Assembly (NCBI GenBank): GCA_020052415.1
Contig: JAGVPB010000040.1
Location: 1 to 64,000, forward strand
Direction of reading: 5' to 3'
From: Bacteroidales bacterium
GTDB lineage: Bacteria; Bacteroidota; Bacteroidia; Bacteroidales; JAADJA01
Length of the DNA stretch: 64,000 nucleotides
Shown: positions 4,051 through 13,040 of the stretch, piece after piece
How positions within the stretch are numbered: position 1 is the stretch's first letter
Layout: each line of letters opens with the position of its first letter
Notes under the pieces: model-generated
What the model saw: the letters and a program-made list of their open reading frames with translations, nothing else
Told to the model about the DNA's origin: nothing
Database searches by the model: none
Translations under genes and position numbers: made by a program

Positions 4051-4150
4051 TTCATTGCGATCCCGCCCTTTCGGCGGGAGAAGCAATCTGCAAAAGGGAT
4101 GCACTACTCATAAGTTACAGATTGCTTCGTCGTGCCTCCTCGCAATGACG
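4051..4150. repeat. Palindromic repeat, family 1 (ATTGCGA...GCAATCTG), copy a
   Basis: Terminal inverted repeats (TTCATTGCGA and CTCGCAATGACG) enclose a second inverted pair (GAAGCAATCTG and CAGATTGCTTCG). The left part carries an extra small hairpin, CCCGCCCTTTCGGCGGG. It lies 20 bp after the kelch/beta-helix gene. Confidence 0.85.
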
Positions 4151-4160
4151 GAATGGAACA

Positions 4161-4303
4161 CGTCATTGCGAAAAGCAGGAGGGGATGGCATGAAAGGCAG
4201 GACTTTGAGGCAATCTGTTACTAGGACACAGGTGTTATATTTATAAGCAGATTGCTTCAGAACGCCTCCGCACCTATCCGACATTTGGTTCTTCGCAATG
4301 ACC
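4161..4303. repeat. Palindromic repeat, family 1, copy b
   Basis: Has CGTCATTGCG at the left and TTCGCAATGACC at the right, with internal GGCAATCTGTTA and AGCAGATTGCTTC arms. It ends 15 bp before the start codon of the subtilase gene, so the promoter or leader of that gene must lie in or beside the repeat. Confidence 0.8.
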
Positions 4304-8035: not shown

Positions 8036-8452
8036 ATGCTTCGAACTCTGATTATAGATGATGAACCTCATATTCGGGATACGCTCTCAAAGCTGCTGAC
8101 AATGTGCTGTCCGATGGTTGAATTGGTCGGAGAGGCATCAGGTATTGTATCCGGGATAGAAAAAATACTGGAAACAAATCCCGATCTTGTTTTTTTAGAT
8201 ATCAACCTTAAAGACGGAACCGGTTATGATCTTATTCATGCTTTACAGCCCCTTGATTTTAAAATAATCTTCATTTCTTGCTTTGATAGCAAAGCCATTC
8301 AGGCATTCAGGCTCAGCAGTATGGCTTATTTGCAAAAGCCGTTTAATCCGGTTGAGCTTATCGGAGCAATTAAACAGGTGGAGAATATGAAGGTGAAGGA
8401 ATTTGACCTTTGTCTTGAAGCACTGGAGGAAAATATGCGGGATGGCGACTAA
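8036..8452 (+). CDS. Receiver-only response regulator, LytTR domain lost
   Basis: A 138-residue CheY-like receiver with the acidic pair in LIIDDEPH, phospho-acceptor D55 (LVFLDINLKDGTG) and the conserved Lys in LQKPFNP. It is a paralogue of the full-length LytTR regulator at 9325 and aligns with it through the linker (FDLCLEALEENM against FNIQMKALEENL). It then stops at TAA, two bases before a palindromic repeat starts. The DNA-binding half is therefore missing, most simply because the repeat cluster displaced it. The receiver residues are intact, so it could still act as a phosphate sink or partner protein. The switch region reads FISCFD where the paralogue has FVTAYD. Without a LytTR domain it cannot act as a transcription factor in the usual way. 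Confidence 0.85.
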   Translation: MLRTLIIDDEPHIRDTLSKLLTMCCPMVELVGEASGIVSGIEKILETNPDLVFLDINLKDGTGYDLIHALQPLDFKIIFISCFDSKAIQAFRLSSMAYLQKPFNPVELIGAIKQVENMKVKEFDLCLEALEENMRDGD

Positions 8453-8454
8453 AA

Positions 8455-8564
8455 CGTCATTGCGAGTGGAATGAAATGGAGCGAAGCAATCTGTCAGTTG
8501 TAAAAAAGGCAGATTGCTTCGAAATGCCTTCCCACTGCCCTCCTTATGATTTCTCGCAATGACG
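8455..8564. repeat. Palindromic repeat, family 1, copy c
   Basis: Bounded by CGTCATTGCGAG and CTCGCAATGACG, with inner arms GAAGCAATCTG and CAGATTGCTTCG. It starts two bases after the stop codon of the truncated regulator. Its centre (CAGTTGTAAAAAAGGCAG) is the same as in copy f. Confidence 0.9.
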
Positions 8565-8574
8565 TTTGAGCGTC

Positions 8575-8685
8575 CGTCATTGCGAGCGGAATGCAATGGA
8601 GCGAAGCAATCTGTAAAAAGTAACCATAAGCAGATTGCTTCGAAATTCCATCCCACATTCCTTCCCTGTATTTCTCGCAATGACG
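8575..8685. repeat. Palindromic repeat, family 1, copy d
   Basis: Same terminal and internal inverted repeats as copy c, ten bases downstream. Its right half (AATTCCATCCCACATTCC) matches copy f. It lies just upstream of the GIY-YIG gene. Confidence 0.9.
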
Positions 8686-8720
8686 GTTTAATAAATAGAA
8701 ATATATTTGTAAAAAAACTC

Positions 8721-9023
8721 ATGAAAAAGGGAGGTTATATATACATACTAACGAACAAGAATAATACGGTCTTATATACAGGGGTGACGAATAACTTGAA
8801 CAGAAGAATTTATGAGCATAAAGAAAAGTTCATTAAAAATTCCTTTACTGCGAAATACAATGCAAGTAAACTGGTCTATTTTGAAACCTTTCAGGATATC
8901 GAGGTTGCCATTGCCAGGGAGAAACAATTAAAAGGTGGATCACGGGCAAAGAAAGAGGCATTAATTAACAGTATTAATCCAGAGTGGAAGGATTTGTATG
9001 ATGAAATAGATGTATTTATGTAA
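8721..9023 (+). CDS. Small GIY-YIG domain protein
   Basis: A 100-residue single-domain GIY-YIG endonuclease-like protein of the UPF0213/UvrC-N type. The first strand reads GGYIYILTNKNNTVLYTGVTNNLNRR (split as GGYIYIL and TVLYTGVTNNLNRRI), giving the Y-x-Y ... Y-x-G signature, the conserved Arg, and E33-region YEHKEK. The usual YFE and AIAREKQLKGGSR motifs follow. The start at 8721 is chosen because everything upstream in the frame is palindromic repeat. The gene is enclosed by two palindromic repeats on each side, which suggests the nuclease and the repeats travel or evolve together. Its target is unknown, and nicking or processing of the hairpins is only an inference. Confidence 0.88.
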   Translation: MKKGGYIYILTNKNNTVLYTGVTNNLNRRIYEHKEKFIKNSFTAKYNASKLVYFETFQDIEVAIAREKQLKGGSRAKKEALINSINPEWKDLYDEIDVFM

Positions 9024-9024
9024 T

Positions 9025-9120
9025 CGTCATTGCGAGCGAAGCAATCTGTTAAATGAAAGGAAAGGCAGATCGCTTTGAAATGCCTTCCCACTGCCCTCCT
9101 TATGATTTCTCGCAATGACG
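9025..9120. repeat. Palindromic repeat, family 1, copy e
   Basis: Begins two bases after the GIY-YIG stop codon. It is shorter at the left (CGTCATTGCGAGCGAAGCAATCTG runs directly), but its right half matches copy c (AATGCCTTCCCACTGCCC). Confidence 0.88.
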
Positions 9121-9130
9121 GTGTTGTAAT

Positions 9131-9240
9131 CGTCATTGCGAGCGGAATGCAATGGAGCGAAGCAATCTGTCAGTTGTAAAAAAGGCAGATTGCTTCGAAA
9201 TTCCATCCCACATTCCTTCCCTGTATTTCTCGCAATGACG
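9131..9240. repeat. Palindromic repeat, family 1, copy f
   Basis: Full element with both terminal arms. The left and centre match copy c and the right half matches copy d, so the elements have recombined with one another. After it, 9241-9324 is the leader of the LytTR regulator gene. Confidence 0.9.
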
Positions 9241-9324: not shown

Positions 9325-10077
9325 ATGCTTCGAGCCCTGATCATTGATGATGAAGCCCACATGCGCGATACGCTTGTCAAACTGCTGGCATTGCATTGCC
9401 CGGATGTGGAAGTTGTCGGACAGGCCTCAGGAGTCGTAAGCGGCGAAGCAGCTATCAATGAATTTCATCCCGAAGTGGTTTTCCTCGACATCCAGATGAA
9501 GGACGGAACCGGTTTCGACCTGCTGTACAGCCTGTCTTCCATTGACTTCAAGGTCATCTTCGTTACTGCTTATGATCAGTATGCACTTCAGGCCTTCCGG
9601 TTCAGTGCGGTGGATTATTTGCTGAAACCGATCAATCCCGAATATCTTGCCGATGCTGTAAATCGCGCCGGACAAATGATACAGGAGCATTTCAATATCC
9701 AGATGAAAGCCCTCGAAGAAAACCTGAAATCGGTAAGTATGCAACATAAAAAGATCATCATTAAAACAACGGAGAACATCCACCTTCTCGACATGAAAAA
9801 TATCATATCCTGCGAATCAGACAGTTCGTACACAACTGTACATACTTCAGAAGGGGATAAAATCCTGGTTTCAAAAACGCTGAAAGAATATGAAGACCTG
9901 CTCGCAGATTGCGGTTTTTACAGGGTTCACAAATCCTACCTCATCAATTTATTACAGATCAAACGTTTTGAGCGGCAGGACGGAGGCAGCATTGTCATGA
10001 GCAATGAACTCAAAATTCCTGTGGCCTCACGCAAGCGGGATGAGTTGCTGCAATTGATCGAGAAGCTGGCGGAATAA
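9325..10077 (+). CDS. LytTR-family response regulator
   Basis: A 250-residue LytR/AlgR-type regulator. Residues 1-120 are a receiver with the acidic pair in LIIDDEAH, phospho-acceptor D55 (VVFLDIQMKDGTG), the switch Thr in FVTAYDQYA and the Lys in LLKPINP. Residues ~145-248 are a LytTR DNA-binding domain (ENIHLLDMKNIISCESDSSY, FYRVHKSYLINL, PVASRKRDELLQ). It should bind direct-repeat operators as a dimer when phosphorylated. No kinase gene is adjacent; the preceding paralogue (8036) lacks this DNA-binding half. In Bacteroidota such regulators often pair with propeller/Y_Y_Y or His_kinase-type sensors, and propeller sensors occur 9 kb downstream, but a functional link is not shown. Confidence 0.93.
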   Translation: MLRALIIDDEAHMRDTLVKLLALHCPDVEVVGQASGVVSGEAAINEFHPEVVFLDIQMKDGTGFDLLYSLSSIDFKVIFVTAYDQYALQAFRFSAVDYLLKPINPEYLADAVNRAGQMIQEHFNIQMKALEENLKSVSMQHKKIIIKTTENIHLLDMKNIISCESDSSYTTVHTSEGDKILVSKTLKEYEDLLADCGFYRVHKSYLINLLQIKRFERQDGGSIVMSNELKIPVASRKRDELLQLIEKLAE

Positions 10078-10121: not shown

Positions 10122-13040
10122 TTATTGAATGATCAGCCGGGTATGCCATAAAGCAGATTCTCCCTGTAATTCAATGATATAAATTCCCGGAATCATATTA
10201 CCGGGATTCAGATGGATTTGTCCTGAAATGCTTTCAAAGCCGGATGAGTAAACACATTTTCCATGAATGTCTGACAATTTTAATTCAAACCAGGAATTTG
10301 TTTCAGGAACTGAAATGGTAAATTCACCCCGACCGGGATTGGGATATACTCTGATTTCATTACTCAGGACATTTTTTTGTGCGGGAACAGAAGTAAATGG
10401 AAACAGGTTTATATTGTCAATAAACAGGTTGTTCCCAACCAGCCTCACCGATTCAAACATCAGCCTTGTATCAGTATATCCTGCCCAGTTTGAAATATCA
10501 ATAGTATTGCATGAAGCCCCAAAGCCTCCGTCGCACCAGTCAACCGGTGATTCCGGGAAAAAATTATAACCAAAAGGTTCGTGGGTTGCAAAGTTATAGC
10601 TGCCGTCTTCGGCAAGTTCAAGTATCCTTGTCCAGATATCACCGCAATCGGTTGAGATTAGCACAATCAAAGAATCGGAATACAGGGTGTTTAATGACTG
10701 TGCATAAGCATGCTCAAATGACAGCGCTACCTGACCCTGGCCTGATAAATCAATCGGCGGACTGATCAACTGATCGCGTTTGAGAATGTTGTAGTATTCG
10801 AAAAGATTGATCCCGGCGGCTTTATCACCTCCGTTTCCTGCAACACTGAAAAGTTCCCAGGTTACATTATTATCGGGATTTACAACCGTCCATCCTTTGG
10901 ATTCGAGGTCACCGTTTTCAAAGTCTTCGGCAAAAGGAATCAGTACTCCGCCTGCTTTGAGATAGTCATCCTTGGTTAGCGAAGCCGAACCGTTTGCATT
11001 TGATACAGTCAGGCTAACTGTGTAATTAACCGGTTCATTAAGAATGATCTCAATATTTTGAGAATTTGGACCGGTTCCATTGACAAACTCAAAAGAAACG
11101 GGTGAAATTTCCCAGGACCATGAAACCGGACAAACACCTGAAAAATCGTTGATGGTAATTGCTCCGCCTGTACAGGTAACAGAATCAACAGCAAAGAATT
11201 CAACATCGGGCAGGGCATCGTCATTCACTGTAATATAACCTGCTTTGGTTTCAGTATCCGATCCCCAACTATTTATAACAGTTAGTGTAACCGAATAGGT
11301 TCCCGGATTGCTCCAACTAATACCCTGTGGATTCTGGTCGGTAGAAGATGCCGGTGTTCCGCCTTCAAATGTCCATTGCCACGAATTCACATCACAAACC
11401 GATTCATCGGTAAAATTTACTATACAACCCGGAGTGATCACTGTTTCAGAAACAGTAAAATCTGCAACAGGTACTTTTTCGAAGTAAACATCAAATGAAA
11501 TGGTTTCACCTGTGAAACCGATATTGGCAATAATCAATCCTCCGGGTTGTCCGTTTTGAAGAAATGGCGAAGGATTGGTGCTATTATTGATCTCTGTACG
11601 TCCATAATCAGCCGCATAGTGCGCCTGGTCGAGGTTTCCGTTTGCTGAGATGGTTCCGTTGGGTCGGTAAACATAAACCTCATCCGGTGGCCCTTGCGAA
11701 TTGCCGTTTCCGTTTTGATCGTTGTCAATTCTGTAAACAAGAAGGCCGCTTCCTGGCAGGCCACCTTCAAACGTGCCTGTTTTGAACCGGTATTCAACAA
11801 CATAATACTGGCTGGAACTGTTGGGTGACGCAATTTTAAAGCAATTATTCGCGGTTTCCGACAATGGATTAATAGTGTAAGTACCACATTCGATGATTTC
11901 AGGAATTTGGTCAATCCAGCCACCGTAGCGGTATTTCATATAGGCACCCATGGATTGTGGCGGATTATCCGACGCATCCATCAAATCCCACGGCCCAACA
12001 GAGGTATAAGGCGCTGAATTGTAATGATAAAGATCAGGCGCACTCAGCGAATGGAACATTTCATGGCAAAGTACACCTGCACCGGAACCATTCAGGTGTT
12101 CTTCCACCTGCAGGTTATAATCCCAAACACGTTTGCCGTTGATATAAACCACTTCGTTATACAGTACCCATCTGTGAGGCCAGAGGAGGGTTGACCATGC
12201 AGTAGTTGCTCCCCTGACGATAAACACCATGTTATCCACATAGCCATCCAGATTTTTATCAATATCGAGATAGTCCGGCACTTCGTCTTCAATATACTGG
12301 CAAGCCCTTTCCAACAGGGCATGTTCACGCTGACCACCTTCGTTTCCCTGGTATCCGTTGGGATTGGTTACCGGATCATAAGGCATGAAGTAATTCCGGG
12401 GATATATATCCTGGTAAGAGATCACAGTTTCTGAAGGTGGAACAGGATAAAACCATGATGGAATAGCGATCATATCATACGATACCGTTTTAAAATAATT
12501 CTGCATCGAATTATATCCTGTAATTGTATTGTTGAAGATGTTGAAGTATTGAAGTGTATCTTCCGTAAATTCAGACTGGTCGCTGAAACGTATGTAAACC
12601 ACGAGGTTATTTAGAACACCTTCGTTCTTGACATCATAAGGGGAAGAATAGCCTGGTATCTGGGGTTTGGGTGGCATGTGGTTTTTAATAAAGTCAGTCC
12701 GCAGGGACTTCATTGCCTCGCCGGGTATATTAGTCCAGGGAAGCAAGCCAACCGAAGCAGGGTCTGTTGTGCCGGCTTTATAAGAGGATGCAACCAGCTT
12801 TTCAACATCAAGTATGGCATAATAATAGAATCCGTCAAGGTGATTCTGGATGATGGTAAATCCTTCATCATCGTGGAGCCAGTTATAAAATTCATCACCG
12901 GTAGCAAAACAATGGATGACGGTACCATCGGGCTGGGTTATGGTTTGAGGCTCGAAATTGATCCAGGCCGGGAATCCATTCAGATAGGCAAGACTGATGC
13001 AAATGAGGATACCGGCGCGAAGTGTATTTTTAATTTTCAT
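10122..13040 (-). CDS. Secreted M6-family metalloprotease with PKD domains, T9SS sorted
   Basis: A 972-residue zinc endopeptidase of the immune-inhibitor-A-like M6 family. It begins with a signal peptide (MKIKNTLRAGILICISLAYL), followed by a short M6 prodomain-like segment (FEPQTITQPDGTVIHCFATG). The catalytic region carries the zinc motif HEMFHSLSAPDLYHY, with the aromatic/Met-turn region after it (SVGPWDLMD). Two PKD domains follow (WQWTFEGGTPASSTDQNP and WSWEISPVSFEFVNG), then a cleaved-adhesin-like jelly roll (FAEDFENGDLESKGWTVVNP). The C-terminus is a T9SS domain (VYPNPGRGEFTISVPE ... MIPGIYIIELQG). The gene converges with the LytTR regulator. Its role is probably extracellular protein degradation. 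Confidence 0.93.
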   Translation of the reverse strand: MKIKNTLRAGILICISLAYLNGFPAWINFEPQTITQPDGTVIHCFATGDEFYNWLHDDEGFTIIQNHLDGFYYYAILDVEKLVASSYKAGTTDPASVGLLPWTNIPGEAMKSLRTDFIKNHMPPKPQIPGYSSPYDVKNEGVLNNLVVYIRFSDQSEFTEDTLQYFNIFNNTITGYNSMQNYFKTVSYDMIAIPSWFYPVPPSETVISYQDIYPRNYFMPYDPVTNPNGYQGNEGGQREHALLERACQYIEDEVPDYLDIDKNLDGYVDNMVFIVRGATTAWSTLLWPHRWVLYNEVVYINGKRVWDYNLQVEEHLNGSGAGVLCHEMFHSLSAPDLYHYNSAPYTSVGPWDLMDASDNPPQSMGAYMKYRYGGWIDQIPEIIECGTYTINPLSETANNCFKIASPNSSSQYYVVEYRFKTGTFEGGLPGSGLLVYRIDNDQNGNGNSQGPPDEVYVYRPNGTISANGNLDQAHYAADYGRTEINNSTNPSPFLQNGQPGGLIIANIGFTGETISFDVYFEKVPVADFTVSETVITPGCIVNFTDESVCDVNSWQWTFEGGTPASSTDQNPQGISWSNPGTYSVTLTVINSWGSDTETKAGYITVNDDALPDVEFFAVDSVTCTGGAITINDFSGVCPVSWSWEISPVSFEFVNGTGPNSQNIEIILNEPVNYTVSLTVSNANGSASLTKDDYLKAGGVLIPFAEDFENGDLESKGWTVVNPDNNVTWELFSVAGNGGDKAAGINLFEYYNILKRDQLISPPIDLSGQGQVALSFEHAYAQSLNTLYSDSLIVLISTDCGDIWTRILELAEDGSYNFATHEPFGYNFFPESPVDWCDGGFGASCNTIDISNWAGYTDTRLMFESVRLVGNNLFIDNINLFPFTSVPAQKNVLSNEIRVYPNPGRGEFTISVPETNSWFELKLSDIHGKCVYSSGFESISGQIHLNPGNMIPGIYIIELQGESALWHTRLIIQ

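Follow-up and report, generated by a model that had tools for sequence, protein, structure and literature searches.

In REP/RAYT systems, as at the locus described here, an enzyme gene is bracketed by repeats, gene-less repeat dimers lie elsewhere, and the clade of the enzyme goes with the type of repeat. The enzyme there is an HUH (Y1) protein and the repeats are tagged GTAG, whereas the present locus combines a GIY-YIG nuclease with a CGTC tag. A second related system is that of Ssn, reportedly a GIY-YIG family of site-specific single-strand nucleases that was the subject of a 2025 Nat Commun study. Ssn, with N. meningitidis as the source of the named protein, is said to cut single-stranded repeats (NTS) in Neisseria, and the family is said to have thousands of homologues. 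The closest repeats are the CGTC-tagged REPs, defined by Di Nocera et al. in 2013 (PMC3733652). The sections of that paper considered here give stems of 8-9 bp, loops of 4-5 nucleotides and mostly CCA tails, name the Neisseriae (dRS3), A. lipoferum, S. meliloti and N. aromaticivorans as carriers, and state that these repeats apparently lack a dedicated transposase, with no transposase association beyond a few fortuitous cases.

Among the matches listed in our literature searches, no title linked GIY-YIG genes to these repeats, and no paper was found using both GIY-YIG and "extragenic palindromic". The terms GIY, RAYT and transposase are all absent from the available main text of a 2025 REP survey (PMC12306157), as are GIY from the accessible part of a 2018 HuH survey (PMC6006769) and "palindrom" from that of a 2006 GIY-YIG survey (PMC1564403).

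We analyzed a window of 64,000 nucleotides from a Bacteroidales bacterium, in which a small GIY-YIG gene stands between inverted dimers of a CGTC-tagged unit. Our preferred reading, to which we assign a probability of roughly 0.6, is that the GIY-YIG endonuclease recognises the flanking REP-like unit and forms a selfish cassette with it.

Anatomy of the locus and its repeats

The gene is intact in the window sequence, with an ATG at 8721 and a stop codon at 9021-9023 (Table 1). Its product carries a GIY-YIG domain (Pfam PF01541, E 2.4e-17), and in an alignment of 29 sequences Y8, Y19, G21, R29, H33, E67 and N86 are invariant. The protein thereby has the active-site set Tyr, Tyr/Gly, Arg, Glu and Asn of the GIY-YIG nuclease superfamily among its conserved residues. 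The structure model reached a pLDDT of 92.6, and the best PDB match was 1zg2 (UPF0213; E 2.9e-4, 31% identity), a UPF0213-like protein that shares its fold with the window protein, as does the UvrC N-domain. A PADLOC search for a defence role gave no match for the gene, and at E 1e-8 the phage collection contained no match that would point to phage carriage.

Table 1 Features of the GIY-YIG locus and related repeats in the window
Feature	Position	Strand	Basis or comparison
Diverged repeat dimer a	4051..4150	.	sequence, shuffles, folding
Diverged repeat dimer b	4161..4303	.	sequence, shuffles, folding
Response-regulator gene, 138 aa, left of cassette	8036..8452	+	counterpart at matching place in G199
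Repeat dimer c: two inverted REP-like units CGTCATTGCGAG...CGAAGCAATCTG	8455..8564	.	sequence, shuffles, folding
Repeat dimer d	8575..8685	.	sequence, shuffles, folding
GIY-YIG nuclease gene, 100 aa; residues 72-74 (GGS) track repeat type	8721..9023	+	
Repeat dimer e: left unit short, right arm shared with c	9025..9120	.	sequence, folding
Repeat dimer f: both arms shared with d, loop with c	9131..9240	.	sequence, folding
Response-regulator gene, 250 aa, right of cassette	9325..10077	+	83% identical gene at nuclease-free G199 site

The sequence bears out the original observation that four palindromes (96-111 bp), two per side, bracket the 100-residue gene, and the two further, diverged copies noted in 4051-4303 were located there (elements a and b). 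The spacing beside the gene is short, as had been noted, although the values of 2-36 bp have to be corrected to 35 bp between element d and the gene and 1 bp between the gene and element e. Between element d and the start codon, TATATTTG (8702-8709) resembles the consensus of the Bacteroidota -7 promoter element.

Elements c, d, e and f all begin with CGTCATTGCGAG and end with CTCGCAATGACG, and each is built of two inverted REP-like units that run from CGTCATTGCGAG through a variable middle to CGAAGCAATCTG. With up to two mismatches allowed, the repeat 12-mer had 14 matches in the window compared to 3.42 expected (sd 2.01), a number reached in none of 100 shuffles. Folding as single-stranded DNA gave z values of -6.6 (c), -7.2 (d), -4.4 (e) and -7.3 (f), and none of 200 shuffles folded as well; a lone unit of e forms a weak hairpin (-2.6 kcal/mol, z -0.4). 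The proposed shuffling of halves between copies is real in the window and was also seen elsewhere in the genome. Element f was wrongly described as the left of c joined to the right of d; it consists of the left of d, the loop of c and the right of d, and it is element e that has the right arm of c.

The genome is a 4.67 Mb draft of 94 contigs, in which we found 21 exact copies of CGTCATTGCGAG and none of the reversed control. Gene-less dimers on contigs C9 and C24 have halves or whole elements in common: the elements at C9:757 and C9:4633 have the same right half, and the element on C24 closely resembles the one at C9:3213 in inverted form.

The repeat unit follows the scheme GTC-ATTxy...y'x'AAT-CT, with xy = GC in the window. 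We examined the xy positions wherever GTCATTxy is followed by y'x'AATC[TC] within 60 nt, omitting the window itself (L018). Near genes, xy was complementary in 215 of 260 cases (109 loci; shuffles: mean 104, maximum 120), among them 147 of type GC, 23 CC, 23 TC and 19 CT. Far copies were complementary in 40 of 74 cases (shuffles: mean 15, maximum 24). This covariation suggests that each unit contains a hairpin or an inverted recognition site, besides the large hairpin of the dimer.

The window repeats share with CGTC-tagged REPs the CGTC/TGTC tag, complementary AT bases first in the stem, the arrangement in inverted dimers and the possibility of a large hairpin; their units, CGTC-ATTGC...GCAAT-CTG, occur in inverted pairs. 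They differ in having a stem of 5 bp (ATTGC/GCAAT), a long variable middle and a CT(G) tail, and the window unit does not show the 8-9 bp stem, 4-5 nt loop and CCA tail of the 2013 definition. Because of this short stem, the variable middle, the CTG tail and the weak lone-unit hairpin, we regard the window repeat as CGTC-REP-like and did not place it in families 1-4. An Rfam identity for the repeat was rejected: the only match, to BTnc231, was sub-threshold (22.3 bits compared to a gathering score of 80.4, E 0.26) and was taken as chance.

Association of the repeats with GIY-YIG genes in other genomes

We analyzed 80 loci from named genomes that had been chosen by protein alone. TCATTGCGA was found 171 times in the 62,226 bp closest to the genes (up to 400 bp) compared to 36 times in the 544,004 bp lying beyond 1 kb, which corresponds to a 41-fold higher density. 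It was near the gene in 52 of the 80 loci and on both sides in 40, while only 27 of 803 control windows contained it. It was present at loci of Bacteroidota, Chloroflexi, cyanobacteria, Elusimicrobia, Clostridia, candidate phyla and further groups, many of them represented by MAGs. Complete units with any xy were near the gene in 62/80, 20/41, 23/50 and 62/89 loci of four overlapping sets, at 1.7-2.8 units per kb compared to 0.06-0.11 in far regions; the set of 41 includes the window, and genes of the set of 80 recur in that of 50, for which the genomes of 16 of these loci were searched.

Extra loci were hand-picked from match lists, 60 in one round and 4 in another, the latter for their several near-identical matches. 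The full collection comprised 260 loci, L181 having given no match; removal of 18 loci with duplicate proteins left 242. An exact word of at least 14 bp was common to both flanks in 160 of 233 loci, those with short flanks being left out, compared to 4 of 206 control pairs taken 1.0-1.4 kb out. By the definition used here, 93 of the 260 loci are without a complete unit near the gene, and 48 of 85 loci without a repeat label still have some other common flank word of at least 14 bp. Such words were also present in 8 of 10 named loci hand-picked among 25 of 32 records of a plasmid collection, and in 0 of 10 control pairs. Three of the plasmid-labelled records, L332 (2.2 Mb, N. gonorrhoeae), L338 (4.9 Mb, Aeromonas caviae) and L345 (4.6 Mb, Shinella), are probably chromosomes. 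A Planktothrix plasmid (L336) has TGTCATTCTGAG repeats at a GIY-YIG gene whose neighbours are an MmeI-type restriction gene on one side and drmA of a DISARM system on the other.

The predicted association with GIY-YIG genes elsewhere was thus strongly confirmed, by the local density as well as by the flank words, and the opposite outcome, repeats not tied to such genes in other genomes, was checked for and not obtained. In contrast to the family of the window gene, more distant GIY-YIG loci of other subfamilies were flanked by GTCATTGCGA in 0 of 20 cases in repeat-rich genomes, 6 of the 20 having less than 400 bp on one side. Chance, or a general abundance of repeats, was rejected on the strength of the controls from far regions and from other subfamilies. 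It is also highly improbable that the repeats are only terminators or RNA-stability hairpins which lie near the gene by chance or through their abundance. The stability of the hairpins would suit such a function, but the 41-fold local enrichment, the clade-specific repeat type described below and the lack of the window's repeat at the 20 loci of other GIY-YIG subfamilies do not, and the association data speak against it as the sole explanation.

The link was also visible at the level of whole genomes. In a sample of 198 genomes, taken at order level, a close homologue (E 1e-15 or better) was present in 13 of the 25 genomes with at least four copies of GTCATTGCGAG compared to 16 of the 173 others (OR 10.6, Fisher p 1.6e-6), the cut-off of four having been picked after the counts were seen. 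At the best locus, 8 of the 13 genomes with both have TCATTGCGA within 400 bp, and the other 5 have another repeat or none. Fewer than four copies of the window's repeat were found in 16 of the 29 gene-bearing genomes. A close homologue is absent from 12 repeat-rich genomes: 8 of them have distant GIY-YIG relatives only, and 4, all drafts and one of them with 109 copies, gave no GIY-YIG match at E 1e-3. There seem to be orphan repeats, provided that the drafts do not simply lack the gene.

Within the window's own genome, the repeat accompanies one of ten GIY-YIG loci, that of the window (1.7-3.2 kb searched per locus). The nearest paralogue (71% identical, on C11) is without such a repeat, on a contig that ends 184 bp downstream. 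By hand reading, five of the ten genes lie less than 400 bp from a contig end (L301 on C34, L302 on C22, L305 on C16, L306 on C12 and L300 on C11), as expected if flanking repeats break the assembly. Direct repeats of unrelated sequence bracket two other GIY-YIG genes of this genome (L302, 1558/1919; L304, 1585/2004).

In the records considered for A. lipoferum, S. meliloti, N. aromaticivorans and N. gonorrhoeae, all from groups named in 2013 as carriers, CGTC-tagged repeats bracket the GIY-YIG homologue. A regular GIY-YIG gene partner is found here, in contrast to the lack of a transposase partner in the 2013 paper. The N. gonorrhoeae homologue is 45.6% identical to the window protein over 90% of the query (E 3e-17) and has CGTCATTCCCGC repeats on both sides of its gene; we take it to be Ssn. 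Window protein and Ssn have in common that they consist of a GIY-YIG domain only, in about 100 residues, and that the Neisseria homologue is bracketed by repeats of the CGTCATT type. The window locus differs in its ATTGC/GCAAT repeat type and in its best named protein matches, which are mainly from Bacteroidota, and its family adds comparative evidence of cassette insertion. It is probably a new Ssn-like member.

Repeat type and protein clade

In order to compare repeat type with protein phylogeny, we built trees of 146 distinct proteins of the 242, without the three motif columns described below; 89 unlabelled proteins, 4 with rare labels and 3 that were short or broken were left out. With four repeat classes (CC and TC joined), repeat type required 22-23 changes on the trees compared to a shuffle mean of 57 (minimum 48-50), and with five classes 29 changes compared to a mean of 59 (minimum 54). 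Repeat type follows the protein tree, and protein clade and repeat type have evidently co-diversified. We regard both the association with GIY-YIG genes and the type-by-type pairing as firm at the level of sequence comparison.

The three columns that carry most information on repeat type are neighbours (residues 72-74 in the window protein), located where the helix with the conserved E67 ends. Glycine at residue 73 was present in 77 of 82 GC-type proteins compared to 5 of 64 others. A rule relating these residues to the repeat gave 127 correct predictions out of 141, with no prediction for 12 of 153 labelled loci, and was derived from the same data. Of 10 hand-picked named loci outside the rule-making, the 4 with GTCATT units fit the rule and 6 have no such units. 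Phylogenetically independent pairs numbered 2-4 on supported branches, which is not significant; in 200 random pairings an average of 0.8-3.0 pairs went the same way as repeat type and 0.0 the opposite way, so that a difference in the residue was matched by one in repeat type in almost all pairings. In view of the rule's origin in the same data and the few independent pairs, we rejected an established residue-to-repeat code in spite of the strong correlation. Of 26 hand-listed genomes that contain at least two loci, five (G226, G221, G705, G819 and G782) have different repeat types beside paralogues that differ in motif class. In G891, paralogues with the same motif carry different labels, GC and AT, the AT label stemming from one unit.

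The pairing also bears on the question of whether the GIY-YIG gene is passive cargo, carried along while another enzyme, for example a RAYT/Y1 transposase, moves the repeats. This is very unlikely. The genome does contain 7 Y1_Tnp matches, but none is near an exact repeat copy: two are on copy-bearing contigs at a distance of more than 100 kb, and five are on copy-free contigs. Protein clade moreover predicts repeat type, and the considered sections of Di Nocera et al. (PMC3733652) likewise speak against a transposase that accompanies CGTC repeats. The GTAG tag and adjacent Y1 HUH transposase of REP/RAYT systems are not found here, as the units begin with CGTC. Mobilisation by a RAYT was rejected on the same Y1_Tnp distances in this genome.

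As the simplest reading of these comparisons, the protein very probably recognises its own repeat; binding and cleavage of the repeat by the window protein are what we infer. A wider proposal, to which we give slightly less than even odds, is that the GIY-YIG family might be the general enzyme partner that had been missing for the CGTC/TGTC-tagged REP superfamily as a whole, a REP/RAYT-like replicator whose turn at residues 72-74, beside the catalytic glutamate, would read the xy bases of the stem. Repeats described in 2013 as apparently without a dedicated mobilising enzyme are now paired type by type with one GIY-YIG family in many phyla, and the origin of CGTC-tagged repeats becomes testable in the laboratory. 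The many natural pairs of enzyme and target are in addition a source for reading the specificity of single-strand cutting.

Presence, absence and duplication of the cassette

In A. lipoferum 4B, a repeat dimer, a GIY-YIG gene and a second repeat dimer lie between sufB and sufC. The cassette is absent from A. ramasamyi, A. oryzae and Azospirillum sp. B510, the flanks of which are 95-98% identical, and the sufB-sufC junction of A. argentinense is without it as well; in A. ramasamyi and A. oryzae the junction also lacks the repeat. The remaining Azospirillum matches listed extend over the flanks only. Between the same two genes, a Shinella record carries another GIY-YIG gene, with one inverted unit per side and a different repeat type. 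The gltA-lpxB junction that contains the gene in S. meliloti has a counterpart about 700 bp shorter in three Sinorhizobium records, judging from the spans in the match table.

A genome of the same genus as the window's (G199) has a matching response-regulator pair, between which lie two repeat elements but not the nuclease gene. The intervening stretch is 289 bp in G199 compared to 872 bp in the window, which is compatible with both gain and loss. At L308, a 722-bp stretch of gene plus repeats is duplicated, and both copies start at a repeat unit. L311 contains three copies that are 79-94% alike, and at L309 and L310 the genes lie inside repeat arrays. Gene and repeats evidently behave as a cassette that is present in one genome, with the gene absent from a relative. 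The analogy to REP/RAYT gains from these insertions and duplications. With regard to classical IS elements or transposons, inverted repeats are present (one unit per side in Shinella), the cassette contains no recognised transposase, and no target-site duplication was noted in the comparisons made here.

These data also bear on an Ssn-type role without transposition, in which the nuclease would recognise repeats in incoming single-stranded DNA and modulate natural transformation or genome exchange, and the cassettes would spread by homologous recombination through the repeats. The N. gonorrhoeae homologue among its CGTCATTCCCGC repeats, the reported 2025 work on Ssn and NTS in Neisseria, and the shuffled halves, which fit recombination, would agree with such a role. 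We consider it rather unlikely, since the family is present in many lineages and since the A. lipoferum insertion is at a junction that is repeat-free in A. ramasamyi and A. oryzae, where repeat exchange alone would be insufficient.

According to our preferred reading of a selfish cassette, the small GIY-YIG endonuclease would recognise a CGTC/TGTC-tagged REP-like unit of the form GTC-ATTxy-loop-y'x'AAT-CT, here with xy = GC, most likely while the unit is single-stranded and folded. The cassette would consist of repeat dimers, gene and repeat dimers, and dimers without the gene would be non-autonomous copies of it, in the relation that REPs have to RAYTs. If the units were cut or nicked and then repaired or copied, shuffled halves, gene-less copies and spread of the cassette would result. 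Whether the nuclease itself drives this movement is, judged from the sequences, a plausible proposition with about even chances.

In four loci of the same genus (L129, L132, L133 and L145), repeat elements or single ends of them lie directly upstream of one group of response-regulator paralogues. In L310, an array of TGTCATTCAGAG-type units, many of them about 120 bp apart, extends beside the GIY-YIG gene (10900-13000).
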